From: Corynebacterium glucuronolyticum
GTDB lineage: Bacteria > Actinomycetota > Actinomycetes > Mycobacteriales > Mycobacteriaceae
Direction: 5' to 3'
Assembly (NCBI GenBank): GCA_022772305.1
Contig: JALFAQ010000058.1
Span: 34,646 to 98,645, forward strand
DNA length: 64,000 nt
The notes beneath the pieces are model-generated. The model did not search any database and was not told the DNA's origin. It worked only from the letters and a program-made list of their open reading frames with translations. Below, in pieces: positions 29,759 through 36,980 of this stretch (position 1 is its first letter; each line of letters opens with the position of its first letter). The translations under genes and the position numbers were made by a program.

Positions 29759-29771
29759 GGCTCCGCTTCCG

Positions 29772-29803
29772 CGCCCACAGGTTGCATCCTGTGGGCGTTT
29801 TTG
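29772..29803 (+). terminator. Terminator after pfkA
   Basis: Perfect 10-bp stem (29772-29781 with 29788-29797), then TTTTT. It also separates pfkA from the convergent biotin gene. Confidence 0.85.
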
Positions 29804-29832: not shown

Positions 29833-31650
29833 CTAGTCCTTGCGCGCCGCCCGGAGGAGCTCGGCCAGTCGGTCGATGTGTGCGTGGGTGTGTGCCGCCG
29901 AGATCGTGACCCGGATGATCGCCTCTCCACGTGGCACGGTGGGGTAGCGCATCGCCGGTGCCCACATGTGATGGTCGCGGAGGTAGTCAGCGACGTGAAC
30001 GGCTCGGCGCTCCTCGCCGATGGGAACCGGGATAATCGGTGTAGCAGGTCCTGTGGACGTGACCTCTAACGCCTCGCATGCGTAGGCGATGTTCGCCTGC
30101 AACGTAGCAACGACGTCCGAGGTCTGGATCAGGCGCAGCGCCGCGCGGCTGGCCGCTACCACGCCTGCTGACAGCGCGGTGGAGTAGACGTAGCTGCGCG
30201 CATGGTTGCACAGGTATGTGCCCAGTTCCCCGTCACAGCAGACGAATCCGCCTTCGGAACCAAACGCCTTCGATAGCGTTCCGATGAGAATGTCTGGACG
30301 CACACCGGTCAGTTCCGCCGTACCTTTCCCCGTGGCGCCGAGGGTGCCCAGGCCGTGTGCATCATCGACGATGAGGGACGCGCCCGTGTCGTGGAGGGAG
30401 GGAAGATCTGCGATATCGCCGGCCATGGAAAAAAGACCGTCGGTGACGATAAGTGGAAGTGACCCGGAAACCGTGTCCGGTGCCGTGCCGTGCGCGTAGA
30501 CGTGCATGCTGGCCCCTTTGCGCCGAGCGAGCGACATACCGTCGATAAGCGAAGCATGGTTTGCAGCATCGGAGAAAAACGTGGGGGAGAGCTCTCCCAA
30601 CGACTGCATGAGCCCGACGTTTGCCTGATAGCCCGTAGCAAAGAGGACGCAGTCCTCGTAGCCGAGCCAGCTCGCCAGCTCCTCTTCCAGAGCCCTGTGC
30701 TGGTCCGTTGTGCCCGTCGTGAGCCGTGACCCGCCGGAGCCTGCTCCGTAGTGCTGAAGGGCCGAAGCACTCGCGCTGATAACCTCGGGGTGCGTGGCAA
30801 GCCCCAGGTAATTGGAAGACGAGAACAGCACGTAGCGTTGCCCGTCTACGGTGCACTCTGTTTCCTGGCCAGTGGAGAAGACATGTTCCTGCCGAGTAAG
30901 GCCGCTGGCCTCCCATTTTTCGTTTCGGTTGGCCACCTCCTCGATGAGGGACCGGGGCTTCGCAGGTAGTGTGCGCACGAGTACGGGAGCGTGCTGGAGG
31001 TAGGAGATGATGTCCTCCACAGTCGTGTGACGGAGATCGACGAAGAAGGCACGCCCGCCGCTGGCGCCAGGAGCAATGCGGGGAATTCTGTGATAGACAC
31101 CGTCGCGGGCGATATAACCCGTGGTGTAGCTCGTGTCATCCGATACGCAGAGCTCTGCGACGATTCCTGGGCAGGACAGCGTTTTCGTCGCCAGCACGAG
31201 GGCTTCGTGGAAGTGATCCTTCGTCGTCTTTGCCTGCACCCCTCCCGCTGGGTCGTCCCAGTCCATGTGGGTGACGCGGACTCCGCGCTCGTGATCGGGT
31301 TCGACGCGCTGTCCCGTCGCAATATCGATGAGTGCTGCCCCGCGCATGGTGGCGGGAGACATGACGACATCCCAGCCACTGGCCGGTAGCCCCGCCAGAA
31401 GCTCCGGGATACACTCCGGTCCGTCGTGTTCTTCAACAGCGAGCGGATCTACCACGCAGGGAGGGGCGGTCACCTGCTCACACGTGAGCGTGAGGGTGTC
31501 CGGCTCGCCGAGTTCGTGGGTGGTACCGCGGGTGACGAGGCTGGAGGCAATGACCGGCAGCTCCGCCAACCGCGGAGTGAGACGCTCGGCGCCGGAGATG
31601 TGGGTGGACGAGCGGGAGGCGCGCATGCGCACGGAGTATAAGGAAGTCAC
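29833..31650 (-). CDS. bioWF: BioW-BioF fusion: pimeloyl-CoA ligase / 8-amino-7-oxononanoate synthase
   Basis: 605 residues joining two consecutive biotin steps. Residues 1-~235 are BioW (SVRMRAS near the start, HISGAER, then MRGAALIDI), which makes pimeloyl-CoA from free pimelate, CoA and ATP. Residues ~236-605 are BioF, a PLP enzyme that condenses pimeloyl-CoA with alanine: SSSNYLGLATHP, GSGGSRLTTG, VDDAHGLGTLG, and the PLP lysine at ~461 in TLSKAFGSEGG. Fusion would let pimeloyl-CoA pass directly between sites. GTG start at 31650, 6 nt after TATACT (31662-31657), so probably leaderless. A palindrome resembling the BioQ operator lies just upstream of that box. A second, separate BioW gene precedes it by 38 bp. 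Confidence 0.92.
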   Translation of the reverse strand: MTSLYSVRMRASRSSTHISGAERLTPRLAELPVIASSLVTRGTTHELGEPDTLTLTCEQVTAPPCVVDPLAVEEHDGPECIPELLAGLPASGWDVVMSPATMRGAALIDIATGQRVEPDHERGVRVTHMDWDDPAGGVQAKTTKDHFHEALVLATKTLSCPGIVAELCVSDDTSYTTGYIARDGVYHRIPRIAPGASGGRAFFVDLRHTTVEDIISYLQHAPVLVRTLPAKPRSLIEEVANRNEKWEASGLTRQEHVFSTGQETECTVDGQRYVLFSSSNYLGLATHPEVISASASALQHYGAGSGGSRLTTGTTDQHRALEEELASWLGYEDCVLFATGYQANVGLMQSLGELSPTFFSDAANHASLIDGMSLARRKGASMHVYAHGTAPDTVSGSLPLIVTDGLFSMAGDIADLPSLHDTGASLIVDDAHGLGTLGATGKGTAELTGVRPDILIGTLSKAFGSEGGFVCCDGELGTYLCNHARSYVYSTALSAGVVAASRAALRLIQTSDVVATLQANIAYACEALEVTSTGPATPIIPVPIGEERRAVHVADYLRDHHMWAPAMRYPTVPRGEAIIRVTISAAHTHAHIDRLAELLRAARKD

Positions 31651-31665
31651 CTTCCCAGTATAAAT

Positions 31666-31678
31666 AGAACTACGTTCA
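31666..31678 (-). promoter_or_regulatory. BioQ-like operator of the biotin gene
   Basis: On the minus strand TGAAC-GTA-GTTCT, a perfect GAAC-N3-GTTC palindrome. It resembles the BioQ site described for C. glutamicum (TGAAC-N3-GTTAC). It sits 4 nt upstream of the -10 box of the fusion gene, where a repressor would block transcription. Confidence 0.6.
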
Positions 31679-31688
31679 AGTGGTGTTG

Positions 31689-32369
31689 TTACATCTCATG
31701 TTCCGTACGAATAAGTACGGGGCGGTGCTCCAAGTAGGCGATGGCTTCCTGCGGGGTGGTGATGTGGGTGTCGAGATAGAACGCCCGACCGCCACCACGC
31801 TGTCCGAGCTCCTTCATCTTGGGGATGCGATGGAACACGCCGTCGCGGACGATGTAGCCACTGGTGAAGCCGGGGTCATCGCTGATGGCGAGCTCTGCCA
31901 CCATGCCGGGGCAATGGTGCACCTTGGTAGCCAGTGCAACCGACTCGCGGAAGTGGTCTTCCTCCTGCGTTATCGGGGTGAACTCCCAATCCATCATAGA
32001 CACGCGGATGCCACGATCCGGATCAGGTTCGAGCCGTTTACCTGTGTGGATATCGATGAGCGCTGCACCACGCATACGAATTTCGCTGGAGGCAATCTGG
32101 TGGCCGATTTCCGGGAGGCCATCGAGAAGCTCGCCGACCTCCTTGACGTTTTTCACGGGGAGCTGGTCGAGGATAAGGGGAGTGGTGCGGACCTGGTCCA
32201 CGGTGATGTGGATTTCGTCAGGCACACCGAAAGAGTGGTTGAGGGCCCTCGACGTCAGCGCGGAGGTGATTGTCGGGATGTAGACCTGCTTGGTGATGCG
32301 CTCCCCGCCGGAGACGTGAATGTCACCGCGGGCGGCGCGCATACGGACGGAAAAATACTCTTCATTCAC
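31689..32369 (-). CDS. bioW: Stand-alone 6-carboxyhexanoate-CoA ligase
   Basis: 226 residues from the GTG at 32369 (MNEEYFSVRMRAARG, HVSGGERIT, MRGAALIDIHTG, GFTSGYIVRDGVFHRIP). Full length for BioW, with the same motifs as the N-terminal half of the next gene, so it should also make pimeloyl-CoA. The two BioW copies are clearly diverged, not a recent duplication. The start follows TAAACT (32383-32378) by 8 nt, consistent with a leaderless message; a longer frame to 32471 lacks family support. Possible roles: different substrate or expression, or a partner in a heteromeric complex with the fusion. All inferred. Confidence 0.88.
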   Translation of the reverse strand: MNEEYFSVRMRAARGDIHVSGGERITKQVYIPTITSALTSRALNHSFGVPDEIHITVDQVRTTPLILDQLPVKNVKEVGELLDGLPEIGHQIASSEIRMRGAALIDIHTGKRLEPDPDRGIRVSMMDWEFTPITQEEDHFRESVALATKVHHCPGMVAELAISDDPGFTSGYIVRDGVFHRIPKMKELGQRGGGRAFYLDTHITTPQEAIAYLEHRPVLIRTEHEM

Positions 32370-32470
32370 ACTTTTCCAGTTTACGTATCGTTCCGTAGAC
32401 CTCGTTGAACAATGCAGGTGATGTGGCGGAACTAACACGCCATAAGGGGAGCACCTCGAAGGTGTGGGCA

Positions 32471-32500
32471 TGAAAAACCCCAGCCCGCGGGGACTGGGGT
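32471..32500 (-). terminator. Terminator of the AAE transporter gene
   Basis: GC-rich hairpin (ACCCCAG / CTGGGGT arms), followed on the minus strand by TTTTT. 32 bp after the stop at 32533. Confidence 0.75.
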
Positions 32501-32532: not shown

Positions 32533-34128
32533 TTAGATGATGACGACGGCCTGGACTGCCAGAATCTTGATAATCATCGCAATGGCGAATAGTGCTGAGT
32601 ACCCAGAGTTCGTGCGGGGATCGTCGACAAGCGACTGAGCGTGGGTAAGAAGCGCCGGCTGGCCGACGAAACCTGCCATAGCACCGGCCGTACGGGGTAT
32701 GGAGAGCCCCAGAGTGCGACCGGCACACGCAAGAGCGAGGAGCATAATCGCGAGGAGAACACCGGCGATAAGCCCCACCGTGATGCCCTCGGCGCTAAAG
32801 GCCGTTGCCGCGAACATCTGACCAGAGGAAAGACCGACCGTAGCCAGGAAGATGACGAGACCGAACTGGCGAATCGTGAGGTTTGCCGATGTCGGCATAC
32901 CCCACACGAACGGGCCCGTGCGCTCCAAGTAGCCGAGCCAGATGCCCACAACCATCGGGCCTGCCGCGCTGCCGAGCGCCACAGCAGCACCGCCGATGGG
33001 CAGCGTGATGAGGCCGAGCGCGACACCAAGGGCGATGCCCATGCCGGCCGTCATGTAGTCCACCTCGGTGTTTTCCTTCTCCGAGTTGCCGAGGTACTCC
33101 TTAATCGTGTCCATCGTGGACACCGGAGACACAACGAGGAGACGATCACCGAGCTGCACCTCAGCCTCCGCCTCAGCAAGCGTGACCTCGTCACCGCGAC
33201 GGATCCGGGTGATGATCGCGCCGAAGCGCAGCGGAATATAAAGGTCGGCGATGGAGCGACCGGCAAGGCGGCTGTCGGATACGAGGATCCACTGGAAATC
33301 CACCTCCGAGCGATCCTTGGTGAGATCCATCTCCGAGGTGTGTCCCAGTGCTTCGACGGCCTTCTTCACAGCGTCCGGGTAACCGACGATGACGATTGCT
33401 TCGCCGGGAAGGAGCTCCTGTGCCGGGTGGGCAACAGAGGTGTGGCCGTTGCGGCGAATGTACGACACGCGGACGGAACCACCGTAGGTGCCGGGAACAG
33501 AGGCGATGCCGGGGATCTCGGAAACGCGCATCGGCTTGTCGACGATCGCCGTGGTGTTCACCAGGCCTTCGGAAGCAGCGTGTGCGGGGTCGTTACGGGC
33601 AGGGAAGCGGAAACGGGCGAGGATCGTCAGGCCGATCATCGTCACAATGACACCGACGGGGTAGGCGATGGAGTATCCCACAGCGGGGCTCATCGCCCCG
33701 TCGAGCGCATCCTGTGCTGCGGCGAGAGCCGGGGTAGCGGTGAGCACACCGGCGTACATGCCGCCAATCATCCCTGCATCGACCCCGAAGAGCTTACCAG
33801 CGGCAACCGCCAGGGAAGCCATGATGATGAGGATGACAGTGGCACCGATGTAGAGCTTGTACTGGCGCTTGAACTCGCGAACGAACGAGGGGCCGGCCGC
33901 CAGGCCAATGGTGTACACGAAAAGTGCAAGTCCCACGGTCTGAACCAGACCCCATCCTTCGCCCAGGCGCGGATCAAGTGCACCAAAAGCAAGTCCGACA
34001 AAGAGCGCGCCGGCGGGGCCGAAGCGTAACGGCCCAAACGGGATGGAGCCGATAACCGTGCCGAGCGCGATAACAACAAACAACGTCAGAATCGGTGTAT
34101 TCGCGAGTATCTCAATCACGTTAAGCAT
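32533..34128 (-). CDS. AAE-family (AspT/YidE) transporter
   Basis: 531 residues: about five N-terminal spans, a central cytosolic part with two TrkA_C (RCK-C) domains (residues ~205-370, e.g. LPGEAIVIVGYPDAV and VQLGDRLLVVSP), and about five C-terminal spans with the internal repeat GPMVVGIWLGYLERTG. This is the layout of the aspartate:alanine exchanger family, of which C. glutamicum has members; TrkA_C domains usually bind a small ligand that gates transport. Substrate unknown (amino or dicarboxylic acids are likely). ATG at 34128; the ribosome-binding site is poor. The terminator at 32471-32500 ends the unit. Confidence 0.87.
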   Translation of the reverse strand: MLNVIEILANTPILTLFVVIALGTVIGSIPFGPLRFGPAGALFVGLAFGALDPRLGEGWGLVQTVGLALFVYTIGLAAGPSFVREFKRQYKLYIGATVILIIMASLAVAAGKLFGVDAGMIGGMYAGVLTATPALAAAQDALDGAMSPAVGYSIAYPVGVIVTMIGLTILARFRFPARNDPAHAASEGLVNTTAIVDKPMRVSEIPGIASVPGTYGGSVRVSYIRRNGHTSVAHPAQELLPGEAIVIVGYPDAVKKAVEALGHTSEMDLTKDRSEVDFQWILVSDSRLAGRSIADLYIPLRFGAIITRIRRGDEVTLAEAEAEVQLGDRLLVVSPVSTMDTIKEYLGNSEKENTEVDYMTAGMGIALGVALGLITLPIGGAAVALGSAAGPMVVGIWLGYLERTGPFVWGMPTSANLTIRQFGLVIFLATVGLSSGQMFAATAFSAEGITVGLIAGVLLAIMLLALACAGRTLGLSIPRTAGAMAGFVGQPALLTHAQSLVDDPRTNSGYSALFAIAMIIKILAVQAVVII

Positions 34129-35918: not shown

Positions 35919-36980
35919 GTGCAAACTGTGACGATCGCGACGGCCGGTGAACCATTTCCCGGTTCGGCCTTTTCCTCGCCGATCTACCGGATCCCTGCTC
36001 TGTGCGTGACAGGATCCGGTCGCATCCTTCTGGCGTACGACGTGCGAGAAGACTGGCGGGATTTGCCGGCAGATTTTGATATCGCGTTGCGCCACAGTGA
36101 TGACGGCGGAAAGACGTGGTCAGTTCCGCGCGCGCTGCGCCGACACGAACCGGGGCATGGATTCGGGGATGCCTCCCTCGTGTGTGCGTCGACACGTCAT
36201 GGCGGCGACATCCTTTGTTGGTATGTCGGTTCGACGGGGGAATCCTACTTCAGCGCCACGCCTGGAAAACCCGGGCTTGAGCTCTGGCTGTCCCGTTCGC
36301 GGGACGACGGGATGACGTGGGAGCACCACCAGATGGACGACCTGCGTCCGGAATCAGTAGGTGGCATGTTCGCCTCCTCTGGCAATGGGCTCGCACTGTC
36401 CGACGGCGGTCTCATCCAGACCTTTGTCGCCCGCGTGGGGGAGGACAACTTCGCGCTGGCTGCCCGCAGCGATGACGGGGGACAGACCTGGCGCGCAGGT
36501 GCACTCATCGGCCCGGACTGCGACGAAAACAAGGTGGTTGAGCTAGCAAACGGAGACATCCTCATGCACGCGCGGGCGACACCGGCGCGTCGACAAGCAC
36601 TGTCACGCGATGGCCTCACGTTTGCTTCCCCAACTCCCGTGCCGGCGCTGACAGATCCGGCGTGCAACGGTGGCCTGTGCAGGTGGAGCGACCTCCTCGT
36701 GGCGAGCATGTGTGACCACCCACGGGAACGTGGGCGCTTGAGCCTTCACTTTTCCACCGATGAGGGGGCAACGTGGGGGCCGGTAATTCCCCTCGATACC
36801 GGCGCCACGGCTTACTCCGTAGCAGTACCACTTGATGATGACACTCTCGCGCTGGCGTGGGAAGCCGACGATTACCGCACCATCCAGTTCGCTACCGTTA
36901 CTCGTGGCGAGGACATCGTCCCGAGGCGCGGTGCAGGCACGTGGGCTAAGCCTCCGGTGGTTAACCCCGCCGGAAAATGA
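35919..36980 (+). CDS. Exo-alpha-sialidase (GH33), no signal peptide
   Basis: 353 residues, six-bladed propeller type. YRIPAL (the FRIP-type box with the first Arg, ~23-28) and YDVRED follow near the start. Four Asp-boxes are readable (SDDGGKTW, SRDDGMTW, SDDGGQTW, STDEGATW). The probable nucleophile Tyr (AYSVAV), the catalytic Glu in DENKVVEL, and Arg residues in MHARATPARR and ERGRLSL are all present, so it should be active. It removes terminal sialic acid. No signal peptide or anchor is visible, so it is cytosolic and would act on imported sialosides or internal substrates. GTG start with GTGAGG 6 nt upstream. Its 3' end overlaps the convergent acetyltransferase gene by 20 bp. Confidence 0.9.
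   Translation: MQTVTIATAGEPFPGSAFSSPIYRIPALCVTGSGRILLAYDVREDWRDLPADFDIALRHSDDGGKTWSVPRALRRHEPGHGFGDASLVCASTRHGGDILCWYVGSTGESYFSATPGKPGLELWLSRSRDDGMTWEHHQMDDLRPESVGGMFASSGNGLALSDGGLIQTFVARVGEDNFALAARSDDGGQTWRAGALIGPDCDENKVVELANGDILMHARATPARRQALSRDGLTFASPTPVPALTDPACNGGLCRWSDLLVASMCDHPRERGRLSLHFSTDEGATWGPVIPLDTGATAYSVAVPLDDDTLALAWEADDYRTIQFATVTRGEDIVPRRGAGTWAKPPVVNPAGK

Follow-up and report, generated by a model that had tools for sequence, protein, structure and literature searches.

A stand-alone BioW beside a BioW-BioF fusion in Corynebacterium glucuronolyticum: two copies that differ in active-site residues and upstream DNA

A stand-alone bioW gene and a bioWF fusion lie side by side in the stretch of Corynebacterium glucuronolyticum DNA analysed here (64,000 nucleotides, hereafter the window). 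Given the differences in their active-site residues and upstream control DNA, the two copies probably act on different acids and are probably regulated differently. Our best explanation, to which we give an even chance, is that the fusion would be a biotin-controlled enzyme leading from pimelate to 8-amino-7-oxononanoate, and the stand-alone protein an acyl-CoA ligase with relaxed or changed specificity that has likely escaped biotin repression. Of the two, it is the stand-alone copy that stands out; fusions of this kind are known, and the one here is unusual in a single loss, that of Lys218 (residue positions are those of Bacillus subtilis BioW, BsBioW). The acid chain of biotin is set at the BioW step, and the enzyme is reported to become less selective for its acid when tyrosines of its pimelate clamp are changed to Phe (PMC9544090). 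The duplicate described here has both clamp tyrosines and two otherwise invariant residues changed, yet it is strongly conserved, and its intact-clamp neighbour provides an internal control. The pair therefore makes a natural switch of the BioW fold to another acid directly testable.

Both genes are on the minus strand. Stand-alone bioW (31689-32369, GTG start at 32369, stop codon ending at 31689) codes for 226 aa and bioWF (29833-31650, GTG start at 31650, stop codon ending at 29833) for 605 aa, with a gap of 38 bp between them (31651-31688). An earlier note, made from the letters of this DNA, had described a BioW of this length followed 38 bp later by a BioW-BioF fusion, and both the coordinates and the Pfam matches confirm it. 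PF03744 was matched over its full profile length by the stand-alone protein (E 4.4e-56, 190.5 bits) and by the fusion (E 7.8e-58, 196.3 bits), above the curated cut-off of 25 bits. In the single open frame of the fusion, PF03744 (residues 5-225) was followed by PF00155 (residues 273-597); the BioW half extends over 30970-31650 and the BioF half, starting around residue 232, over 29833-30957, both on the minus strand. The further claim that both copies keep the family motifs holds at the level of PF03744, but not throughout, since invariant or nearly invariant residues were changed (see below) and both proteins missed the NCBIfam cut-offs for BioW. Against PRK01322 (cut-off 226) the stand-alone copy scored 194.7 and the fusion 202, and against TIGR01204 (cut-off 193.55) they scored 131.5 and 128.4. 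The BioF half reached 358.4 bits with TIGR00858, below the equivalog cut-off of 426.45, yet this was the top-scoring family there; a PLP-lysine motif was present in this half. The two BioW domains of the window shared 47% identity across 225 residues. The stand-alone protein displayed the BioW fold and the predicted models of both proteins were confident, with a pLDDT of 89.9 for the fusion.

The same gene pair was encountered in a second species (genome G063, locus L053), in the same order and between the same flanks, i.e. pfkA on one side and a gene for an AspT/YidE-type transporter on the other. Database relatives of the stand-alone protein were recorded at 96% and 85% identity, the latter being its nearest named relative, from Corynebacterium pyruviciproducens. 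Because of these relatives and of the arrangement in G063, the pair is considered more than a chance association. Terminator-like hairpins were observed on both sides, one at the end of pfkA (29771-29798, plus strand), between that gene and the end of bioWF, and one (32477-32500, minus strand) separating bioW from the transporter gene. The transporter gene (32533-34128, minus strand, encoding Asp-Al_Ex and TrkA_C domains) is in both species the immediate upstream neighbour of bioW, and it is conceivable that it has an acid-transport role for BioW, although the hairpin intervenes. A sialidase-like protein with BNR/Asp-box repeats is encoded about 3.5 kb from bioW (35919-36980, plus strand).

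The pairing is rare. BioW was matched in 73 of the 242 Corynebacterium genomes searched, and loci were obtained from 71 of these. A fusion occurred in 16, accompanied by a stand-alone copy only in the window and in L053, i.e. in 2/242 genomes. The two genomes outside these loci (G151 and G181) each had a single match, and the open frames concerned (254 and 263 aa) are too short to encode one. Of the 60 loci with wide flanks, 47 had a stand-alone BioW only, and a BioF match adjoined it in 45 of them, the exceptions being L046 and the presumed relic L051. As for database relatives, no second BioW was present in the flanks (up to 4 kb) of any of the 80 named loci, the best 80 of 164 relatives. 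In a phylum sample of 396 genomes, BioW scored above the cut-off in one, the window's own genome. No article title dealing with a BioW and BioWF pair was found in a literature search that mostly left subscription journals outside its reach.

Several other loci of the genus displayed incomplete genes. The match in L051 (5995-6162, 57 residues) is near a pfkA 80% identical to that of the window, in a genome with no other BioW match, and may be what is left of the locus seen in the window. A BioW-BioF fusion in L050 (4810-6657) lacked about 27 model positions in the middle of its BioW half, its frame being open. Broken bioW genes occurred in L047 (5941-8151, two pieces about 1.3 kb apart) and in L036 (5986-6753, in-frame TGA), and the sequence they share there relates them to a group of BioW proteins with Ala in place of Arg213.

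For the comparison of active-site residues, 314 rows matching BioW to any extent were available; 12 of them covered fewer than 200 model positions and were excluded, and the other 302 gave 287 distinct domains, namely eight of the window lineages and 279 others, many of which are close mutual relatives and all of which were picked by similarity to the queries. Tyr199 and Tyr211, which hold the far carboxylate of pimelate and are tied to pimelate specificity (PMC9544090), form together with Arg213 the pimelate clamp. In the stand-alone protein this clamp reads Phe, Phe, Arg. Position 199 was Phe in all four stand-alone sequences and Tyr in 277/279 other domains; position 211 was likewise Phe in the four, and elsewhere Tyr (253/279) or Phe (26/279). 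Two residues identical in 279/279 other domains were also replaced in each of the four, Cys192 by Ala and Ala174 by Ser, and one of them (P0002) further displayed Asn for the otherwise invariant Asp195. Apart from these changes the lineage kept Arg213, Lys218, Lys180, Glu190 and Arg227.

The clamp of the fusion reads Tyr, Tyr, Arg, and its lineage (four sequences) also kept Cys192 and Ala174. Its main departure is at Lys218, which was Lys in 279/279 other domains, was kept in four of the C-terminal pieces left out of the set (L036, L047, L049 and L050), and was Ala in all four fusion-lineage sequences. Thr replaced Pro197 (Pro in 267/279 others) and Ala replaced Gly221 (Gly in 274/279 others), where the loop was shortened. 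Of the 21 columns with a conservation of at least 99%, three were changed in the stand-alone copy, against a maximum of one among the 279 other domains, and one in the fusion, as in nine of the others. Neither copy was extreme in less conserved columns (97%: at least three departures in 3/279 others and at least two in 11/279; 95%: at least three in 13/279; 90%: at least four in 20/279 and at least five in 9/279). The active-site alignment suggested in the earlier note thus gave a mixed answer for each copy, the fusion having its clamp but not Lys218, and the stand-alone protein Arg213 and Lys218 but not Tyr199, Tyr211, Cys192 and Ala174. Its idea of different substrates gains from the absence of the two specificity tyrosines, the argument being one from residues.

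Changes at Arg213 were also recorded elsewhere, with Ile in L026, Ala in L067-L070 and Thr in P0138 and P0157 (the latter named Cutibacterium), and L038 displayed Phe199, Phe211 and Ser213. The pimelate clamp seems to have been eroded several times among BioW proteins.

A difference was observed between the upstream regions of the two genes. The predicted corynebacterial BioQ box is TGAAC-N3-GTTCA (PMC3398298), and a box with one mismatch to it, TGAACGTAGTTCT (31666-31678, minus strand), precedes bioWF; in L053 a box with two mismatches was found at the same place. Before the stand-alone gene no BioQ-type box was found, the best sites having three mismatches in the window and four in G063. Within 250 bp upstream and with at most two mismatches, such a box preceded 65/69 bioW genes of the genus, against 3/69 for the reversed pattern, although these genes (from 67 genomes, the partial matches L036, L049, L050 and L051 being outside the count) are mutually related and do not represent independent cases. 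A box was missing from four genes, the stand-alone bioW of each pair and also L040 and L042, which look unrelated and whose lack of a box counts against our best explanation. The weight rests on the position of the box across the 69 upstream regions, not on site counts: neither the number of sites in the genome (44 allowing a single mismatch, against 25 with the pattern reversed) nor that in the window (2, with 1.95 expected) carries much by itself. The different control proposed in the earlier note is thus in line with the upstream sequences of both species.

Each gene is also preceded by a -10-like hexamer read by eye, TATACT 6 bp before the GTG of bioWF (31657-31662, minus strand) and TAAACT 8 bp before that of bioW (32378-32383, minus strand), and in L053 TACACT occurs at the same spacing before both. 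Both hexamers of the window were missed by a consensus promoter scan. Their occurrence before each gene, with the spacing unchanged between the two species, suggests that bioW and bioWF each have their own leaderless transcript. A GlxR-type site upstream of bioW (two mismatches to a pattern that we take to be that of GlxR) was discarded, the window containing 14 such matches, fewer than the mean of 27.6 in shuffled sequences.

Further genes of the biotin pathway were encountered in the window's genome. bioA and bioD scored above the cut-off, and bioB was split into two parts lying at contig ends, neither of which reached the whole-protein cut-off. There was one BioY, and the BioF half of the fusion was the sole BioF match at E <= 0.001. 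bioA and bioD are consecutive on one strand in locus L078 (contig C52), downstream of two frames that we take to be scpA- and scpB-like. BioQ-type sites occurred where the scpB-like frame ahead of bioA begins (one mismatch), some 150 bp ahead of the bioY match (one mismatch) and shortly before bioB (two mismatches). No P450 was found in this genome, nor any BioC above the cut-off, with seven weak matches to the latter. The source of pimelate in BioW organisms is given as not known in one account (PMC11089781).

Comparison of the window with G063 (NG86) gave dN/dS ratios of about 0.03 for bioW (0.035/1.317) and 0.10 for bioWF (0.147/1.406), which are rough because dS exceeds 1 and is near saturation. 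The two halves of the fusion were alike in this respect (0.125/1.221 for the W half and 0.16/1.521 for the F half). At the protein level, identity between the two species was 97% for pfkA, 92% for the transporter, 93.4% for bioW and 78.7% for bioWF. Judged from these sequences, neither gene looks like a remnant and both appear to be under purifying selection; since constraint on the two halves of the fusion is similar, its BioW part probably still works. Stand-alone, fusion and C. phocae-type fusion sequences formed one clade, supported at 100/99 (tree of 77/93 rows) and 100/98 (31/93 rows), and the stand-alone gene is therefore regarded as a paralogue of the corynebacterial fusion and not as a separate import. 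A topology joining the two window lineages without the C. phocae-type fusion was not rejected (p-AU 0.18), and the branch uniting the fusions reached only 85/31 in the 31/93-row tree, so that the duplication may have preceded or followed the C. phocae split. The stand-alone copies of the window and of G063 represent a single case shared by inheritance and not independent occurrences.

From these data a plausible course of events may be proposed. The BioW domain would have been duplicated beside, or out of, the bioWF fusion, as the tree suggests. The fusion, with its box and its three clamp residues, would feed its own BioF half. The stand-alone protein has Arg213, Lys218 and other conserved charged residues, and its clamp tyrosines have become Phe and its Cys192 and Ala174 have changed; by analogy with CaBioWF (the fusion of C. 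amycolatum) and with BsBioW Y199F, it may accept acids of another length or acids without the far carboxylate. Lacking a BioQ box upstream, its gene would be expressed even with ample biotin. The retention of Arg213, the third clamp residue, counts against this explanation. In a more tentative version, the stand-alone protein would have abandoned pimelate and become a novel acyl-CoA ligase, built on the BioW fold and free of biotin repression, whose product would serve another purpose or would be turned by the BioF half into non-biotin aminoketones.

The closest rival to relaxed specificity of the stand-alone copy assigns it the supply of pimeloyl-CoA to a fusion with a weak BioW half of its own. 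As Lys218, invariant in the other domains, is absent from all four fusion-lineage sequences, this half may be weak or dead, in which case a stand-alone pimelate ligase feeding the BioF half would be favoured. The adjacency of the genes in both species, the single BioF found in the genome and the higher conservation of the stand-alone gene between species all agree with it. On the other hand, a dead half would need neither the constraint observed on the W half nor the tyrosines, Arg213 and Cys192 that it has kept, and it is from the stand-alone copy, not from the fusion, that box and tyrosines were lost; we regard this supply as rather unlikely. Another way of linking the two proteins is the mixed complex mentioned in the earlier note, in which the stand-alone BioW would pair with the BioW half of the fusion, each filling in for residues missing from the other, or both setting specificity jointly. 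CaBioWF is reported to be a homodimer to which both domains are predicted to contribute (PMC9544090), and residues absent in one copy are present in the other. Reciprocal loss was nevertheless dropped as support for a shared active site, such non-overlap being expected by chance (P 0.60, 0.76, 0.80 and 0.86 at four conservation levels), and a fixed stoichiometry is disfavoured by the seemingly different control of the two genes, so that a complex of this kind appears improbable.

Plain dosage, with two ordinary pimelate ligases of which the second adds activity or a constant supply, is hardly more attractive. Both are intact proteins of the BioW family in a genome with bioA, bioD and bioB, and CaBioWF still uses pimelate with Phe at the 211 position (PMC9544090). 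Recent copies would, however, be expected to be alike, not to share 47% identity and differ at otherwise invariant residues. That one copy is a decaying remnant is very improbable. The earlier note had named the lack of essential residues as the sign of a remnant, and this sign is there in part: each copy has lost otherwise invariant residues, Lys218 in the fusion and Cys192 and Ala174 in the stand-alone protein, and bioW is broken elsewhere in the genus (L036, L047). Against decay stand the open frames in two species, the purifying selection on both genes, the confident structure models and the conserved blocks upstream of the pair.

BioW-BioF fusions are an already known type. That of Desulfosporosinus orientis is reported to complement an Escherichia coli bioF mutant on pimelate (PMC9544090); it is, like that of the window, a natural fusion, and differs in that the description by which it is known here mentions no paired stand-alone BioW. 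Purified CaBioWF converts pimelate to 8-amino-7-oxononanoate and has a broad acid range, which is related to its Phe192, since F192Y restores pimelate specificity; likewise, BsBioW Y199F takes mono- and di-acids (PMC9544090). Phe192 of CaBioWF is paired with BsBioW Tyr199 in the text of that report and with Tyr211 in a figure legend (PMC9544090), and it corresponded to Tyr211 in our alignment. Channelling of pimeloyl-CoA within the fusion, which the earlier note had put forward, is not new here, having already been proposed for CaBioWF (PMC9544090). CaBioWF and the window fusion have the same domain order and size, and a BioQ-type box also precedes the C. amycolatum-type loci L064-L066. A naturally occurring clamp Phe is common to both cases within the genus. 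Yet, in CaBioWF the single Phe (position 211) sits in the fusion itself and no second BioW was found in those genomes, whereas in the window the fusion has both tyrosines and lacks Lys218, and it is the adjoining separate BioW that carries two Phe.

The BioW proteins of B. subtilis (PDB 5FLL) and Aquifex aeolicus (PDB 5TV5) are about 35-37% identical to the stand-alone copy, which differs from them by Y199F, Y211F, C192A and A174S. In ordinary corynebacterial bioW-bioF neighbours, as in the window, a BioF-coding sequence directly follows bioW, and a BioQ-type box is usually found upstream. The pairs of the window and L053 distinguish themselves from these by a bioW that precedes a complete fusion, and by a box that is placed before the fusion instead.
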